Shown here: positions 13,456-59,237 of the stretch, in pieces
How the letters are laid out: each line of letters begins with the position of its first letter
Position numbering within the stretch: the stretch's first letter is position 1
Made by a program: the position numbers and the translations under genes
Notes under the pieces: model-generated
What the model saw: only the letters and a program-made list of their open reading frames with translations
What the model was told of the DNA's origin: nothing
Database searches by the model: none
Source of the DNA: Candidatus Magnetomicrobium cryptolimnococcus
GTDB taxonomy: Bacteria; Nitrospirota; Thermodesulfovibrionia; Thermodesulfovibrionales; Magnetobacteriaceae
Reading direction: 5' to 3'
Length of the DNA stretch: 59,237 nt
Assembly: GCA_018606805.1 (NCBI GenBank)
Contig: JAGYWI010000019.1
Location: forward strand, 1 to 59,237

Positions 13456-13519
13456 CCTATCTGGACATCCATACTTTACTCATTATTTTTTTGCAAACCT
13501 AATTTATTTGAGTATATAA

Positions 13520-18151: not shown

Positions 18152-18288
18152 GATAGAAGAGCGGGGGAAAACCCTTTTAACCAGAAGAAAAAAGAAAAAA
18201 GTATAGAAGAGCGGGGGAAAACCCTTTTCGAGAAAAAGGGTTCTTCCCCCGCACCCCTTACGGGAGTGCGCCTCCGCACTTCCTAAAA
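18152..18288. repeat. Repeat block with perfect GCGGGGG hairpin
   Basis: AGATAGAAGAGCGGGGGAAAACCCTTTT occurs twice (about 18151 and 18202). The second copy forms a stem at 18211-18252: GCGGGGGAAAACCCTTTT pairs with AAAAAGGGTTCTTCCCCCGC. The same 42-nt hairpin is found unchanged at 53316-53357. It is followed by TACGGGAGTGCGCCTCCGCACTTCC. Confidence 0.75.
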
Positions 18289-18488
18289 CTTTTGTCCTGA
18301 CAATAAGTGCTAGATGTTGGACATTATGGCAGAATGACACGTTTATTTCCCAAAGCTTGTGCAGGCATAACGAGTAAATCGCCGACGGGCAAGAGTCTCC
18401 CCTATAAAAAAACGGGGATACTCTTGCCCGTCGGCGATTTGGCGCTAAAAGGGGGAGGAAAAATATCTCCCCCTTAAAACCCCCTCTC
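18289..18488. repeat. 200-nt hairpin element, copy 1
   Basis: Left part (18289-18375, from CTTTTGTCCTGACAATAAG to CAGGCATAACGAGT) is nearly identical to the reverse strand of 36770-36855. Then follows a long hairpin (18376-18440) whose base AAATCGCCGA/TCGGCGATTT is shared, but whose inner arms (CGGGCAAGAGT...) are unlike copy 2 and pair perfectly with themselves. Next come GGCGC and a second conserved small hairpin (18451-18473, GGGGGAG/CTCCCCC). No reading frame of any length fits, and no transposase is nearby. Confidence 0.85.
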
Positions 18489-19003
18489 TGACTCTTTTGG
18501 AGCTAGCGCAGAGTCCTTCCACCTTTCTTCTATCTTTTCTTTTTTTCTTTTATTTTTTCTTTCTTTTTGCTATGTTTTTTTTATTCTAATAATATCCTAA
18601 TAGTATATTTAATACAATCAAAAGCTGTATATCCCGCAGGTTTAATTTTTATTTATTTATTTATTTATTTCTTTACAAAAAAACTTGTATTTTAATTTTT
18701 TTTATTGTATTATATTTCATACGGTGGAATATACCACTGAAGTCCTTCCGACAAGTTTAATTGAATTTTATTGTATAGACACTTTTAGAAAAATTTAATA
18801 GATATATAGTGGGTGTTTATAGTGTTTTTACTACATCGTTTTTTTTAGTTCCTTAACGTCTAAAATTATAGTCTTTTCAAAGCGTTGTGATGTTATTGTT
18901 TTTTAGGAGTGATGTTTTTGTTTGTTTGATGTATCCATACTATTAGTTAGCTGTACTCAGAAAACCGAGGGCGGGTAGTCCTTGGAAAAATTAGGAGGTT
19001 TGT
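18489..19003 (+). other. Gene-free AT-rich region before the seven-gene operon
   Basis: Contains GCAGAGTCCTTCC followed by a C/T-rich tract (about 18507-18565, also seen at 331-365), an ATTT/TTTA tandem stretch (about 18650-18670), GTGG-AATATA-CCAC (about 18724-18738), and a long leader to the AGGAGG at about 18992. Candidate promoter elements such as TTGTAT and TATTAT (about 18685-18715) are weak. No small gene or known RNA family was recognised. Confidence 0.4.
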
Positions 19004-30817: not shown

Positions 30818-30925
30818 TACCAAAAGTTTTAGGAAGTGCATAGGCGCACTCCCGTAATGGGTGGGGAGGAGATAACAGGGGAGTGCGCCTACGCACCTTT
30901 TGCCTAAAAGGGTTTCCGCCCGCTC
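30818..30925. repeat. Repeat block with 18-bp stem, conserved loop
   Basis: CAAAAGTTTTAGGAAGTGC precedes an 18-bp stem with one mismatch: GTGCATAGGCGCACTCCC at 30836-30853 and GGGAGTGCGCCTACGCAC at 30879-30896. The loop has GTAATGGGTGGGG and GATAACAGG, as in 174-237. It ends in CCTAAAAGGGTTTCCGCCCGCTCC. It lies between the broken receiver and rnhA. Confidence 0.75.
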
Positions 30926-30982
30926 CTCTATCTTTTTTCTTTTTCTTTTTCCTTTTATCTTATGCTAAGATAAAAAACGAGA

Positions 30983-36483: not shown

Positions 36484-36569
36484 GTAAAAAAAGAAAAAAA
36501 TACAGGGCAAGCTCATCTATACCCAAACAAATTAGGTTTGCAAGGCATTATTAAAAATAATAAGGAAAC

Positions 36570-36655: not shown

Positions 36656-36855
36656 AGAGAGGGGGTTTTAAAGGGGGAGATATTTTTACTCCCCCTTTTT
36701 GCGCCAAATCGGCGAATGGAAAGCCAACCCCCATTTTTTTGGGGGGGTTGGCTTTCCATTCGCCGATTTACTCGTTATGCCTGCACAAGCTTTAGGAAAA
36801 AAAGTGTCATTCTGCCACAGTGTACAACATTTAGCACTTATTGTCAGGACAAAAG
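36656..36855. repeat. 200-nt hairpin element, copy 2
   Basis: Inverted relative to copy 1 (18289-18488). Holds a small GGGGGAG/CTCCCCC hairpin (36673-36695), GCGCC, then a hairpin at 36706-36769 with a 27-bp perfect stem (AAATCGGCGA base, inner arm ATGGAAAGCCAACCCCC) around a T-run loop. The flank ACTCGTTATGCCTGCACAAGC to GTCAGGACAAAAG matches copy 1 with about seven differences in about 90 nt. The arm itself is unrelated to copy 1, yet fully self-complementary. No gene seen. Confidence 0.85.
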
Positions 36856-43881: not shown

Positions 43882-46764
43882 TCACAGTTTAGAAGCTATT
43901 TTTTCTATCTTATAATTTTCTAAAATATCTCCAATTTTAATATCATTGTAATTTTCCAGCATAATGCCACACTCATAACCGGTATTAACTTCTTTAACGT
44001 CATCTTTTACCCTTTTAAGAGAGTTAATCTTGCCATCATGTACAACAATATTATCCCGAATAACTCTAATGCCTTCACTTGCCCTTTGAATTACGCCATC
44101 TGTTACCATGCAGCCTGCAATAGTACCAAGACGTGATATAACAAAAAGCTGTCTCACTTCGGCAGTACCAAGGATAGTTTCTTTTATGGTAGGCTCAAGC
44201 ATACCCTCAAGGGCTTTCTTTATATCGTCAATGGCGTCATATATGACGTTATAGAATCTAACATCAACGCCTTCTCGTTCAGCCAGTCGTTGGGCTTTAA
44301 CATCGGCTCTTACGTTAAAACCGAGTATTATGGCATTAGAAGCAGACGCTAGCATAACGTCCGACTCGTTAATCCCACCGATGGCAGTATGTATAACTCT
44401 AACCTTTACCTCTTCGTGTTTAATGCCATCCATAGAACCCTTAACAGCCTCAACTGAGCCTTGAACGTCTCCCTTAACAATTATATTAAGTTCCTTGATT
44501 TCCTGTTCCTTTATCTTTGCATAGACGTCATCAAGGTTAAGTTTTCTACCAACAACGGCCTTTGAAGCAGTAACCTTAGAAAGCCTAGTTATGGCGATTT
44601 GCCGTGCCCTTTTTTCATCATCAACGACGGTTAATAGTTCACCGGCATTTGGTACGTCCGAAAAACCGAGTACTTCAACAGGAGTTGCAGGTCCGGCAGA
44701 TATAATTTTATTGCCATCATCATCACTAAGGGCACGCACGCGTCCGTAGTTAAGGCCAGCTATAAACACATCGCCAATATTGAGTGTTCCGTTTTGTATA
44801 AGCACGGTAGCAATAGCGCCGCGGTTTTTATCCATCTTGGATTCGATAATAATTCCACGAGCGGCCGTATCCGGGTTGGCCCTAAGGTCCATAAGTTCTG
44901 CTTGCAGGATAATCATTTCAAGGAGTTCTTCTATGCCAATACGTTTTTTAGCAGAAACTTCTACAAAGATATTCTTACCGCCCCAGTCCTCTGGCACTAC
45001 CCCGTGTTCTGCCAGCTCATTTTTAACTCGTGCAACGTCAGCACCGCTTTTATCTATTTTATTAATGGCTACAACTATAGCAACATTTGCCGCCATAGCA
45101 TGGCTAATAGCCTCAAGTGTTTGGGGCATCACGCCATCATCAGCAGCTATTACAAGCACAACTATATCTGTAACCTTAGCTCCTCTAGCCCTCATGGATG
45201 TAAACGCTTCATGGCCGGGTGTATCAAGGAAGACTATTTCTTTACCTTTTAATTTAATTTTATATGCACCAATATGTTGTGTAATGCCACCAGCCTCTTT
45301 TTCCTGCACCTTTGTAGAACGTATAGCATCTAACAATGATGTTTTACCGTGGTCAACGTGTCCCATTATTGTAATAACAGGAGGTCTTGACTTTAAGTGT
45401 CCTTCAACAACATCGGCTTCCTCAACCTCAAAATCCTCAACGGTAGCCAGCTCTATCTTAGTACCAAAACTATCAGCCACCAGTATAGCGGCATCCATAT
45501 CAACCGGCTGGTTAATGGAAACCATAGAGCCAAGCTCCATAAATTTTTTAATAACCTCCGGTAGTTTCTGTCCGATAGTTTTAGCAAACTCATTAACGGT
45601 AGTACCTTCTTGCACCTTGATAACCTTTCGTCTAGGCGCAGTTGGCAAAATAACTTTAGTTGCAACAGTCGGGGATCCCTTTTGTTGCATCTTATTTTTA
45701 GTGGATTTTTTAGTATAGCGCGTATCAAAGACCTTTTTAGGTTCCACCTTTCTTATAGACTGAAATGCTCGCTGCATACCAAGTTTGGGTTTCAGCTTGT
45801 CCACTTTATCAATTTCCACTTTTCGTTTAAAGCGGTCTAATATGGCAATGTCCTCATCAGCATAAGTGGGGATTTCCTTCGGTGTTGTTTCAACTAAGGC
45901 AACAGAGGGAAGTGGCCGTACGGGTCGCTCCTTATGGGCGGTGTGTGGTCTTTGCTGTGCTGTCTGTGGCTGTTGGGCTACCCTTTTTCTTGAATCGTCT
46001 TTGTTATATGACGGTTGTTCACGCCGTGCGGTACTATTGTGTTGGTCACGCGAAACCGGCCTGTGCTGGTCTTTTTGGTATGGATGGTCTCTGTGCGGCG
46101 GTCTTTGTCCTTTATTGTTTGAAGTGTAATGGTCTCTCTGTGGCCGATTTTGTTGAGTACCTTGTGGTCGATTTTGTTGAGTACCTTGCGGTCGGTTTTG
46201 CAAGTTACCTTGTGGTCGGTTTTGTTGAGTACCTTGCGGCCGGTTTTGCGGGTTATATTGTGGCCGATTTTGAGAGTTATTTTGAGAGTTATATTGTGGT
46301 CGGTTTTGTTGAGTACCTTGCGGCCGATTTTGAGAGTTATATTGTGGTCGGTTTTGAGAGTTATATTGCGGCCGGTTTTGAGAGTTATATTGCGGTCGGT
46401 TTTGCGGAGTATATTGTTGTTTTTTAGAATCTTGATTATCCCTTGGTTGATACTGCTGTTGTCCTTTATAACCGTGCTGTGTTTTACCATCAGAGGGTCT
46501 GTCTTTATTATCAAAACTGCTGGCCGGAGTTGTAACCTGTGCCTTTTCCTGCACATTGTCAGGGGTATCCCTAACAACATCCACTTTTTTAATAGTTTTT
46601 TTCTTTTCAGAAAGAAAGGTCTCCACCTTAGACGCTAAATCAGGTGATAGCCCTGAGGCAGGTCTCTTTCCCTCTATACCCATATCATGAAGTGCATCCA
46701 GTATAGATTTACTGGAAATATTCAACTTCTTAGCAAACTCATATATCCTTATTTCCGCCATCAA
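43882..46764 (-). CDS. infB: Translation initiation factor IF-2
   Basis: 960 residues. N-terminal IF2_N (about 1-52). A disordered linker (about 60-310) has 11 NRPQxxxQ octapeptides at about 122-213, followed by basic stretches. A second IF2_N-like part spans about 385-455. The GTPase begins at GHVDHGKTSLL (about 466) with DTPGHEAF and NKIDK, followed by the beta-barrels and the fMet-tRNA-binding C-terminal domain. Delivers initiator tRNA to the 30S. Linker length is variable in the family, but this Q/N/P octapeptide array is uncommon. Overlaps ylxR by 4 nt. Confidence 0.96.
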   Translation of the reverse strand: MMAEIRIYEFAKKLNISSKSILDALHDMGIEGKRPASGLSPDLASKVETFLSEKKKTIKKVDVVRDTPDNVQEKAQVTTPASSFDNKDRPSDGKTQHGYKGQQQYQPRDNQDSKKQQYTPQNRPQYNSQNRPQYNSQNRPQYNSQNRPQGTQQNRPQYNSQNNSQNRPQYNPQNRPQGTQQNRPQGNLQNRPQGTQQNRPQGTQQNRPQRDHYTSNNKGQRPPHRDHPYQKDQHRPVSRDQHNSTARREQPSYNKDDSRKRVAQQPQTAQQRPHTAHKERPVRPLPSVALVETTPKEIPTYADEDIAILDRFKRKVEIDKVDKLKPKLGMQRAFQSIRKVEPKKVFDTRYTKKSTKNKMQQKGSPTVATKVILPTAPRRKVIKVQEGTTVNEFAKTIGQKLPEVIKKFMELGSMVSINQPVDMDAAILVADSFGTKIELATVEDFEVEEADVVEGHLKSRPPVITIMGHVDHGKTSLLDAIRSTKVQEKEAGGITQHIGAYKIKLKGKEIVFLDTPGHEAFTSMRARGAKVTDIVVLVIAADDGVMPQTLEAISHAMAANVAIVVAINKIDKSGADVARVKNELAEHGVVPEDWGGKNIFVEVSAKKRIGIEELLEMIILQAELMDLRANPDTAARGIIIESKMDKNRGAIATVLIQNGTLNIGDVFIAGLNYGRVRALSDDDGNKIISAGPATPVEVLGFSDVPNAGELLTVVDDEKRARQIAITRLSKVTASKAVVGRKLNLDDVYAKIKEQEIKELNIIVKGDVQGSVEAVKGSMDGIKHEEVKVRVIHTAIGGINESDVMLASASNAIILGFNVRADVKAQRLAEREGVDVRFYNVIYDAIDDIKKALEGMLEPTIKETILGTAEVRQLFVISRLGTIAGCMVTDGVIQRASEGIRVIRDNIVVHDGKINSLKRVKDDVKEVNTGYECGIMLENYNDIKIGDILENYKIEKIASKL
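46126..46401 (-). repeat. In-frame 24-bp repeat array in infB
   Basis: Eleven units, mostly 24 bp, encoding NRPQ plus YNSQ, GTQQ, YNPQ or GNLQ. Nearly identical at the DNA level, which suggests recent expansion. One unit is extended by 12 bp (NNSQ). Confidence 0.85.
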
Positions 46765-53315: not shown

Positions 53316-53357
53316 GCGGGGGAAAACCCTTTTCGAGAAAAAGGGTTCTTCCCCCGC
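53316..53357. repeat. GCGGGGG hairpin, identical to 18211-18252
   Basis: Stem-loop GCGGGGGAAAACCCTTTT with AAAAAGGGTTCTTCCCCCGC, exact copy of the hairpin at 18211-18252. Possibly a terminator between the panC and rimI genes; no T-run follows immediately. The rest of 53358-53579 has a GTAGGGGCGAACCT motif (53513-53526) and GGTAA/TTACC, no gene. Confidence 0.7.
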
Positions 53358-53579
53358 ACCCCTTTTCCTAAAACTTTTAACCTGTAAGCTATGTATAACC
53401 CCTTAGTATTAGTAGTTCGGCGAACAAGCTTTTTCTTATTGTTTTTTTTTACAAACTACTAAATCACAAGGAACATATGGTAATCTCACGGGGTTACCAC
53501 TACATATCATTTGTAGGGGCGAACCTAGGGGCAAGCCCTTGTTTTGTTTGTAACGGTCATTCGACCCAGTAAGGTGCGC

Positions 53580-58240: not shown

Positions 58241-59237
58241 TCAAATACTATCTTTTATAATTTCAATAAAACTGTCTATCTTAAATGGCTTCAAAATCCA
58301 AGCTTTAGCTCCTACGCTATAAGCTTCCTCTTTTCTCTTCTCATCATTTTCAGTGGTAAGTATTACAATTGGAATTAATTTATAAGCATAGGTTTTCTTT
58401 AATTCTCTTATAAACGCAATACCATCCATACGCGGCATATTCGCTTCACTAACAATTAAATCCACTTTGCTTTCTGATAACTTTGCAAGCGCATCTATTC
58501 CATCTGAAGCCTCAATCACGTTATACCCGCTACTTCTAAGGGATGTAGCCACAAACCCTCGCACCGAAGCAACATCTTCAACTATCATTATAGACGGTTT
58601 AGTAGCCATTTCCTCTTGTTTAAGACTTCTTGAATTTTTTAATGCTATAAGTTCTTGTTCAAGTATTTCAAGTCGCTTGAGGCTTTCATATTTTTCAGCC
58701 CTTAGCACTTCTATTTCAGCTTTCATAGTTTCTATCAATGTTTCAACAGGCACATTTTCCGCTTCTGGCTCAGCTGCTTCTTCACTTGCAACAGCCTCTT
58801 CACTGCTTACCGCAGCTTCTTCCTCTGCTACAACCGGTTCAGCTGTTTCTTCTAATAAAGCCTCTTCTGCTTTTTCTGGCTCAGCTGCTTCTTCACTTGC
58901 AACAGCCTCTTCACTGCTTACCGCAGCTTCTTCCTCTGCTACAACCGGTTCAGCTGTTTCTTCTAATAAAGCCTCTTCTGCTTTTTCTGGCTCAGCTGCT
59001 TCTTCACTTGCAACAGCCTCTTCACTGCTTACCGCAGCCTCTTCCTCTGCTACAACCGGTTCAGCTGTTTCTTCTAATAAAGCCTCTTCTGCTTTTTCTG
59101 GCTCAGCTGCTTCTTCACTTGCAACAGCCTCTTCACTGCTTACCGCAGCCTCTTCCTCTGCTACAACCGGTTCAGCTGTTTCTTCTAATAAAGCCTCTTC
59201 TGCTTTTTCTGGCTCAGCTGCTTCTTCACTTGCAACA
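58241..59237 (-). CDS. Partial CheY-like receiver protein with long acidic repeat N-terminus
   Basis: The frame is open to the right edge, so the N-terminus is outside the window. From 58753 inward: a coiled coil (TLIETMKAEIEVLRAEKYES) then a receiver ending in DSI. Acidic pocket IVEDV and Lys (ILKPFK) are present, but the phospho-Asp position reads LIVSEANMPRMDG (Glu codon at 58445-58447). Upstream, from about 58767 to the edge, at least four exact or near-exact 37-residue repeats rich in A and E (111 bp each). The GTG at 58753 is not needed as a start, since the frame continues. Signalling adaptor; output domain not seen. Confidence 0.78.
   Translation of the reverse strand, partial: VASEEAAEPEKAEEALLEETAEPVVAEEEAAVSSEEAVASEEAAEPEKAEEALLEETAEPVVAEEEAAVSSEEAVASEEAAEPEKAEEALLEETAEPVVAEEEAAVSSEEAVASEEAAEPEKAEEALLEETAEPVVAEEEAAVSSEEAVASEEAAEPEAENVPVETLIETMKAEIEVLRAEKYESLKRLEILEQELIALKNSRSLKQEEMATKPSIMIVEDVASVRGFVATSLRSSGYNVIEASDGIDALAKLSESKVDLIVSEANMPRMDGIAFIRELKKTYAYKLIPIVILTTENDEKRKEEAYSVGAKAWILKPFKIDSFIEIIKDSI
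58767..59237 (-). repeat. 111-bp tandem repeat array (37-residue acidic units)
   Basis: Unit boundaries at 58767, 58878, 58989, 59100 and 59211 are spaced exactly 111 bp. They encode A/E/V-rich repeats including EEALLEETAEPVVAEEEAA. The array continues past the window edge; copies differ at only a few bases. Confidence 0.9.

Follow-up and report, generated by a model that had tools for sequence, protein, structure and literature searches.

How can a hairpin stay almost perfectly paired while the sequence of its arms changes from copy to copy? The question is raised by two 200-nt copies of a repeat in the window (the whole 59,237-nt stretch analysed here), one at 18289-18488 on the plus strand and one at 36656-36855 on the minus strand. 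Both exist and pair as the first-pass annotation had described. The first copy forms 21 + 5 = 26 pairs (AAATCGCCGACGGGCAAGAGT, 21 bp paired, one mismatch, then 5 bp), the second forms 27 pairs, and the stem base AAATCG[C/G]CGA is compensated between them. Overall, the two are 85% identical, far above chance; in a direct comparison of the inner 17 nt, 9/17 positions were identical. The inner arms had been taken to be unrelated, and they seem so because just two copies were compared. Across 25 copies the arms are homologous and form two related classes joined by intermediates.

The host is an uncultured Nitrospirota bacterium with magnetotactic species among its relatives. IF-2 encoded in the window matched Nitrospirota best, and Candidatus Magnetobacterium casense and related MAGs were among its top hits; an initial assignment to the spirochaetes was rejected on this ground. 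In the 3.59 Mb host genome (91 contigs), the 200-nt unit is present 25 times in near-complete form, spread over many contigs and both orientations. An end core, GGGGGAAAACCCTTTT, gave 177 + 188 = 365 matches with at most 2 mismatches, compared with 0-1 for the reversed pattern, and the conserved inner end TTCCTAAAACTTTT occurs in 128 exact genomic copies (control 0-1). Many copies in related genomes, found with the flank, had been named as support. Copies were found in the host and in none of the family or phylum relatives searched: the 200-nt unit had no match in 18 other genomes of the host's family, where the end core was at background level only, and a full-length copy had no match in 395 other genomes of the phylum, in a coarser screen that scored two candidates per genome and could miss distant relatives. 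The exact flank 20-mer was absent from the genome contig collection. We rejected a viral origin, since the sole exact flank match in viral contigs (L031) was that 20-mer alone, a chance hit.

Alignment of the copies revealed that the 200-nt unit, a real feature in its own right, is the inner part of a larger and commoner element with a second hairpin that varies in the same way. Complete copies are non-coding, span ~450-760 nt and end in inverted repeats that each fold into a hairpin. The fullest copies (L003, L004, L012, L013, L014 and L016) all have inverted ends that carry the GGGGGAAAACCCTTTT core together with TTCCTAAAACTTTT, and their parts follow one order. A terminal hairpin and the conserved left part come first, then hairpin 1 and the small GGGGGAG/CTCCCCC hairpin; a CTGGTGCGCTTGCGCACCAG palindrome separates these from hairpin 2, and an inverted terminal hairpin closes the element. 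A/G-rich tracts of variable length lie outside the ends. Direct repeats of 8-10 nt flank 5/9 complete copies and are longer than those of mispaired flanks (permutation p=0.005); these repeats are AT-rich and lie at distances made uneven by the polypurine tracts, and they suggest target-site duplications. Full copies have terminal inverted repeats, and the family is short, non-coding and present in many dispersed intergenic copies. On these features we assign it to a new MITE-like repeat family, a known kind of element, so the earlier statement that the repeat is not a MITE is not supported for the element in which the 200-nt unit sits.

In the window, the 18289 copy is truncated and lacks hairpin 2 and the right end found in full copies. 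Reading along the plus strand, an extra, outer GGGGGAAAACCCTTTT core (18163-18178, a pattern match) precedes the main end by ~50 nt; tandem partial ends were seen in several other copies too. The left terminal hairpin, GCGGGGGAAAACCCTTTT-CGAGA-AAAGGGTTCTTCCCCCGC, occupies 18211-18252 and was identified from its sequence, the 365 matches to its core and the co-variation of its arms among 48 copies. It is followed by TTCCTAAAACTTTT (18280-18293) and, from the alignment of 25 copies, by the conserved left flank of hairpin 1, GTCCTGACAATAAGTGC...GCATAACGAGT (18289-18375). The class-1 5' arm of hairpin 1, CGCCGACGGGCAAGAGTCTCCCC (18376-18402), pairs with the 3' arm (18414-18440) with one mismatch, C opposite T. 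Alignment and folds place the small conserved hairpin AAGGGGGAG...CTCCCCCTT at 18449-18475, and comparison with the fullest copies named above places the conserved right part CTCTTTTGGAGCTAGCGCAGAG at 18489-18516. The second copy (L009, minus strand) is also truncated and lies between a spermidine synthase gene and an L34-like ORF; its hairpin 1, at 36706-36769, pairs over 27 bp with class-2 arms. The window has three further ends of the same family: a terminal hairpin with TTCCTAAAACTTTT and without hairpin 1 at 53316-53378 on the plus strand, and element ends at 30822-30938 and 95-280 on the minus strand. Elsewhere in the genome, the left end is often repeated in tandem as 2-3 partial copies at spacings of 40-57 nt (L012, L001, L003, L021 and others), which look as if ends had been repeatedly duplicated or re-targeted.

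Hairpin 1 varies between copies far more than within them. In the alignment of 25 copies, the two arm classes (...GACGGGCAAGAGTATC... and ...GAATGGAAAGACAACC...) are joined by intermediates, and arm divergence was 1.7% within a copy and ~20% between copies; flank divergence between copies was 14% on the left and 25% on the right. Within-copy identity was directly observed: over the first 24 alignment columns the two arms were identical in 17/25 copies, compared with a mean of 2.7 and a maximum of 10 when arms were randomly re-paired in 20,000 permutations. In a comparison of 16 similarly long copies, both sides had changed in 40 cells and a single side in 1. Two arm-length changes, a G deletion and extra bases near the loop, were matched on both arms. 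Parsimony counts on the flank tree agreed in direction, although they are inflated by its poor resolution; short, mosaic flanks leave the trees built from them with weak support. The terminal hairpins behaved alike, with identical outer arms in 30/48 against 9.8 expected and a maximum of 19 by permutation.

Hairpin 2 carries the most weight. We oriented 30 copies by their flanks and found that the two arms, W and K, normally differ at three sites, with TATGG/TATTGG at one, AATGG/AAGCG at another, and GCCGTAWAAG opposed to GACCTCAAAG or a GCCTTAAG-like sequence at the last. In its ancestral state, hairpin 2 probably formed an imperfect palindrome whose arms could be told apart; 18/30 copies are imperfect. 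In the other 12/30, the same inner block is present on both arms. Four copies have the W type on both arms (L082, L083, L094 and L111), six have the K type (L092, L096, L097, L098, L108 and L109), and two share a hybrid (L101 and L106); AATGG is on both arms in L097 and AAGCG on both arms in L111. The homogenised stretches include multi-base blocks of unequal length. Permutation gave 2.2 such copies on average and at most 9 in 20,000 trials. Copying of one arm onto the other had been proposed in the first-pass annotation, and hairpin 2 bears this out in both directions. Homogenised copies are scattered among non-homogenised ones on the flank tree; the events were therefore repeated and bidirectional. 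Recombination between copies does not place inverted arm sequence on the opposite arm, whereas copying from arm to arm does.

Quasipalindrome correction is expected to turn an imperfect repeat into a better-paired one in which both arms have the sequence of one, and this is what we found at hairpin 2. We read the 12 copies as the footprint of quasipalindrome template switching and as the most direct evidence for it; hairpin 2 showed no inversion of its loop, which template switching sometimes leaves behind. Quasipalindrome correction through template switching is established in E. coli (PMC7202029), quasipalindrome-associated template-switch mutation also occurs in yeast (PMC3820800), and template switching has been proposed to create and maintain hairpins in evolution, with footprints in RNA hairpins (PMC8794818). 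In those systems, as here, imperfect inverted repeats are perfected, multi-base and length changes included. The earlier evidence came from reporters and from rRNA and miRNA genes, whereas here ~100 hairpins (25 + 30 + 48) of one family lie in a single wild genome and the polymerase step is one that we infer.

We therefore propose, with a probability of roughly three in four, that the hairpins of this MITE-like element are kept near-perfect in each copy while drifting between copies by arm-to-arm copying, most likely through quasipalindrome template switching. A mutation on one arm would be copied to the other: during DNA replication, the nascent strand would fold back on its own hairpin arm, the folded arm would serve briefly as a template, and the strand would then switch back, resulting in quasipalindrome correction. 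Template switching explains the copying of blocks, the length changes, both directions and the lack of intermediates, and we infer that the copying was replicative template switching rather than other fold-back repair. Arm copying is read here from copies within a single genome, with single events neither dated nor polarised on orthologous loci. The behaviour of the arms is a known process in an unusually rich natural sample, and the many hairpins of the family are parallel natural replicates from which one could measure how often quasipalindrome correction occurs in a wild bacterium, in which direction it runs and how long its tracts are.

It is unlikely, though worth stating, that arm copying is unusually frequent in the host lineage or is carried out by a dedicated fold-back repair activity, giving covariation without an RNA function. 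If so, the family would be a natural negative control for RNA structure inferred from covariation.

Covariation of paired bases is usually taken to prove functional RNA structure, and hairpin 1 covaries strongly: in the 16 copies of similar length, 12/27 pairs covary, and all five covariation measures exceeded all 500 shuffles and the slid controls. Transcription could then place the hairpins in an RNA such as a 3' UTR or a small RNA, where selection on structure would keep them paired through ordinary compensatory mutation. Read-through transcription is plausible, given that the nearest upstream open frame points toward the element in 18/25 copies (p=0.043). However, one-sided intermediates are nearly absent, arm variation is about equal to flank variation, and hairpin 2 is imperfect in most copies, with multi-base blocks of unequal length among the stretches that were homogenised. 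By a by-eye tally, the compensated column-level changes in hairpin 1 comprise ~14 transversions and 2 transitions, unlike the flanks (71 transversions and 91 transitions; Fisher p=0.001). In hairpins 1 and 2, G-U mismatches did not significantly exceed A-C mismatches (17 versus 10, p=0.25, in a count that omits one loop-closing column common to 19 copies). Nor did we find a promoter- or terminator-like site in the 18289 copy or, with Rfam covariance models run over the window, a known RNA family (0 matches above the gathering threshold). Taken together, we consider maintenance by RNA selection quite unlikely as the explanation and would allow it as a minor factor; judging from the hairpin sequences, an RNA function is not needed for their perfection.

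The first-pass annotation had held that arms differing by single compensatory changes would point to ordinary covariation. Such changes do link the arm classes, but their make-up (mainly transversions, both-arm indels and hardly any G-U intermediates) is closer to what arm copying would give than to RNA covariation built up step by step. None of the explanations that we considered, template switching included, predicts that transversions in hairpin 1 should exceed the flank rate. The strong covariation of ~100 hairpins of one family in one genome points to a mutation process at the DNA level, because there is no G-U excess, indels are matched, and blocks from one arm are found on both arms in both directions. 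The family is a caution for RNA-structure searches.

Arms could instead have been homogenised at transposition, by fold-back copying or hairpin repair of an intermediate, rather than during chromosome replication. The ends of the element are hairpins and copies differ more from one another than do the two arms of one copy, which speaks for this reading. An element-wide event should fix all hairpins together, however, and 6/13 elements combine a perfect hairpin 1 with an imperfect hairpin 2. These mixed states inside one element argue for local copying and leave homogenisation at transposition improbable. Finally, a dedicated process that keeps the scaffold fixed and puts in or exchanges entire arms, by new-arm insertion or RNA-templated copying, is hardly credible: in the two-copy comparison the arm classes share few inner positions and looked like full replacement, but intermediates with one or a few compensated changes, matched on both arms, connect the classes, and an unsystematic look found no reverse transcriptase or other enzyme linked to the copies.

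The element was probably once moved by a transposase acting in trans. We saw no transposase gene between facing ends ~450-760 nt apart and, among the Y1, DDE_Tnp_1 and DDE_3 families, found none linked to these ends. DDE_Tnp_1 gave partial matches in the host genome. A PF01797 profile search for a Y1 (RAYT) transposase gave one match in the host genome, at 20.7 bits and so below the cut-off of 23, and we rejected a REP/RAYT system on that ground. The genome has one IS630-type DDE_3 ORF, on a small contig (L175, ~180-1176), followed by TTTTGCAAACCTGATTTATTTTGGTATA; this visible end sequence is unlike the element ends, which argues against mobilisation by the IS630-type transposase. An autonomous copy bounded by the terminal inverted repeats was likewise not recovered: facing-end intervals of 0.9-4.5 kb carry ordinary genes as far as read, with no transposase seen. 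By eye, the L062 interval holds a tRNA-Arg and unrelated gene segments and the L063 interval a glycosyltransferase-like segment; either bracketed segment could be a composite mobile unit, or its two ends could belong to independent copies that face each other by chance. The L066 interval holds three unnamed ORFs. CRISPR was rejected, as the copies occur singly, lie dispersed and have either orientation.

ERIC, BOX, Correia/NEMIS and RUP are short, non-coding repeats dispersed between genes, with inverted-repeat ends, mosaic modules and folding potential. The present family resembles them, including ERIC/RU-1, in all these respects; it differs in its unusually many internal hairpins and in its ends, which form hairpins and are bordered on the outside by polypurine tracts of variable length; no partner transposase was found, and the other genomes searched gave no sequence match. 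RU-1 (PMC2759123) is counted here among the bacterial MITEs and modular intergenic repeats. REP/BIME and REPIN with RAYT (Y1) (PMC2817692, PMC3116915) are also high-copy extragenic palindromes in mosaic arrangement, but the host elements are much longer, have inverted-repeat ends and come with no Y1 transposase over the cut-off.

Other hairpin modules (AGCGCATTTCGATTTAATAGG... and GTAGGGGCGAACCTATGTGTTCGCCC...) are nested within the same ends genome-wide (for example L065, L067, L072 and L079), and several MITE-like families appear to have been inserted into one another. The window has a further repeat pair, 13468-13516 and 36518-36566, whose ends are near-identical to the sequence that follows the IS630-type ORF; one of the two adjoins the 36656 copy, and the pair probably represents remnants or MITEs of the IS630-type IS. 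A 111-nt direct tandem repeat with units 99-100% identical occupies 58652-59237, partly inside a minus-strand open frame, and reaches the contig end. Tandem repeats with a 24-nt period lie at 46099-46434, in the N-terminal part of the IF-2 gene.
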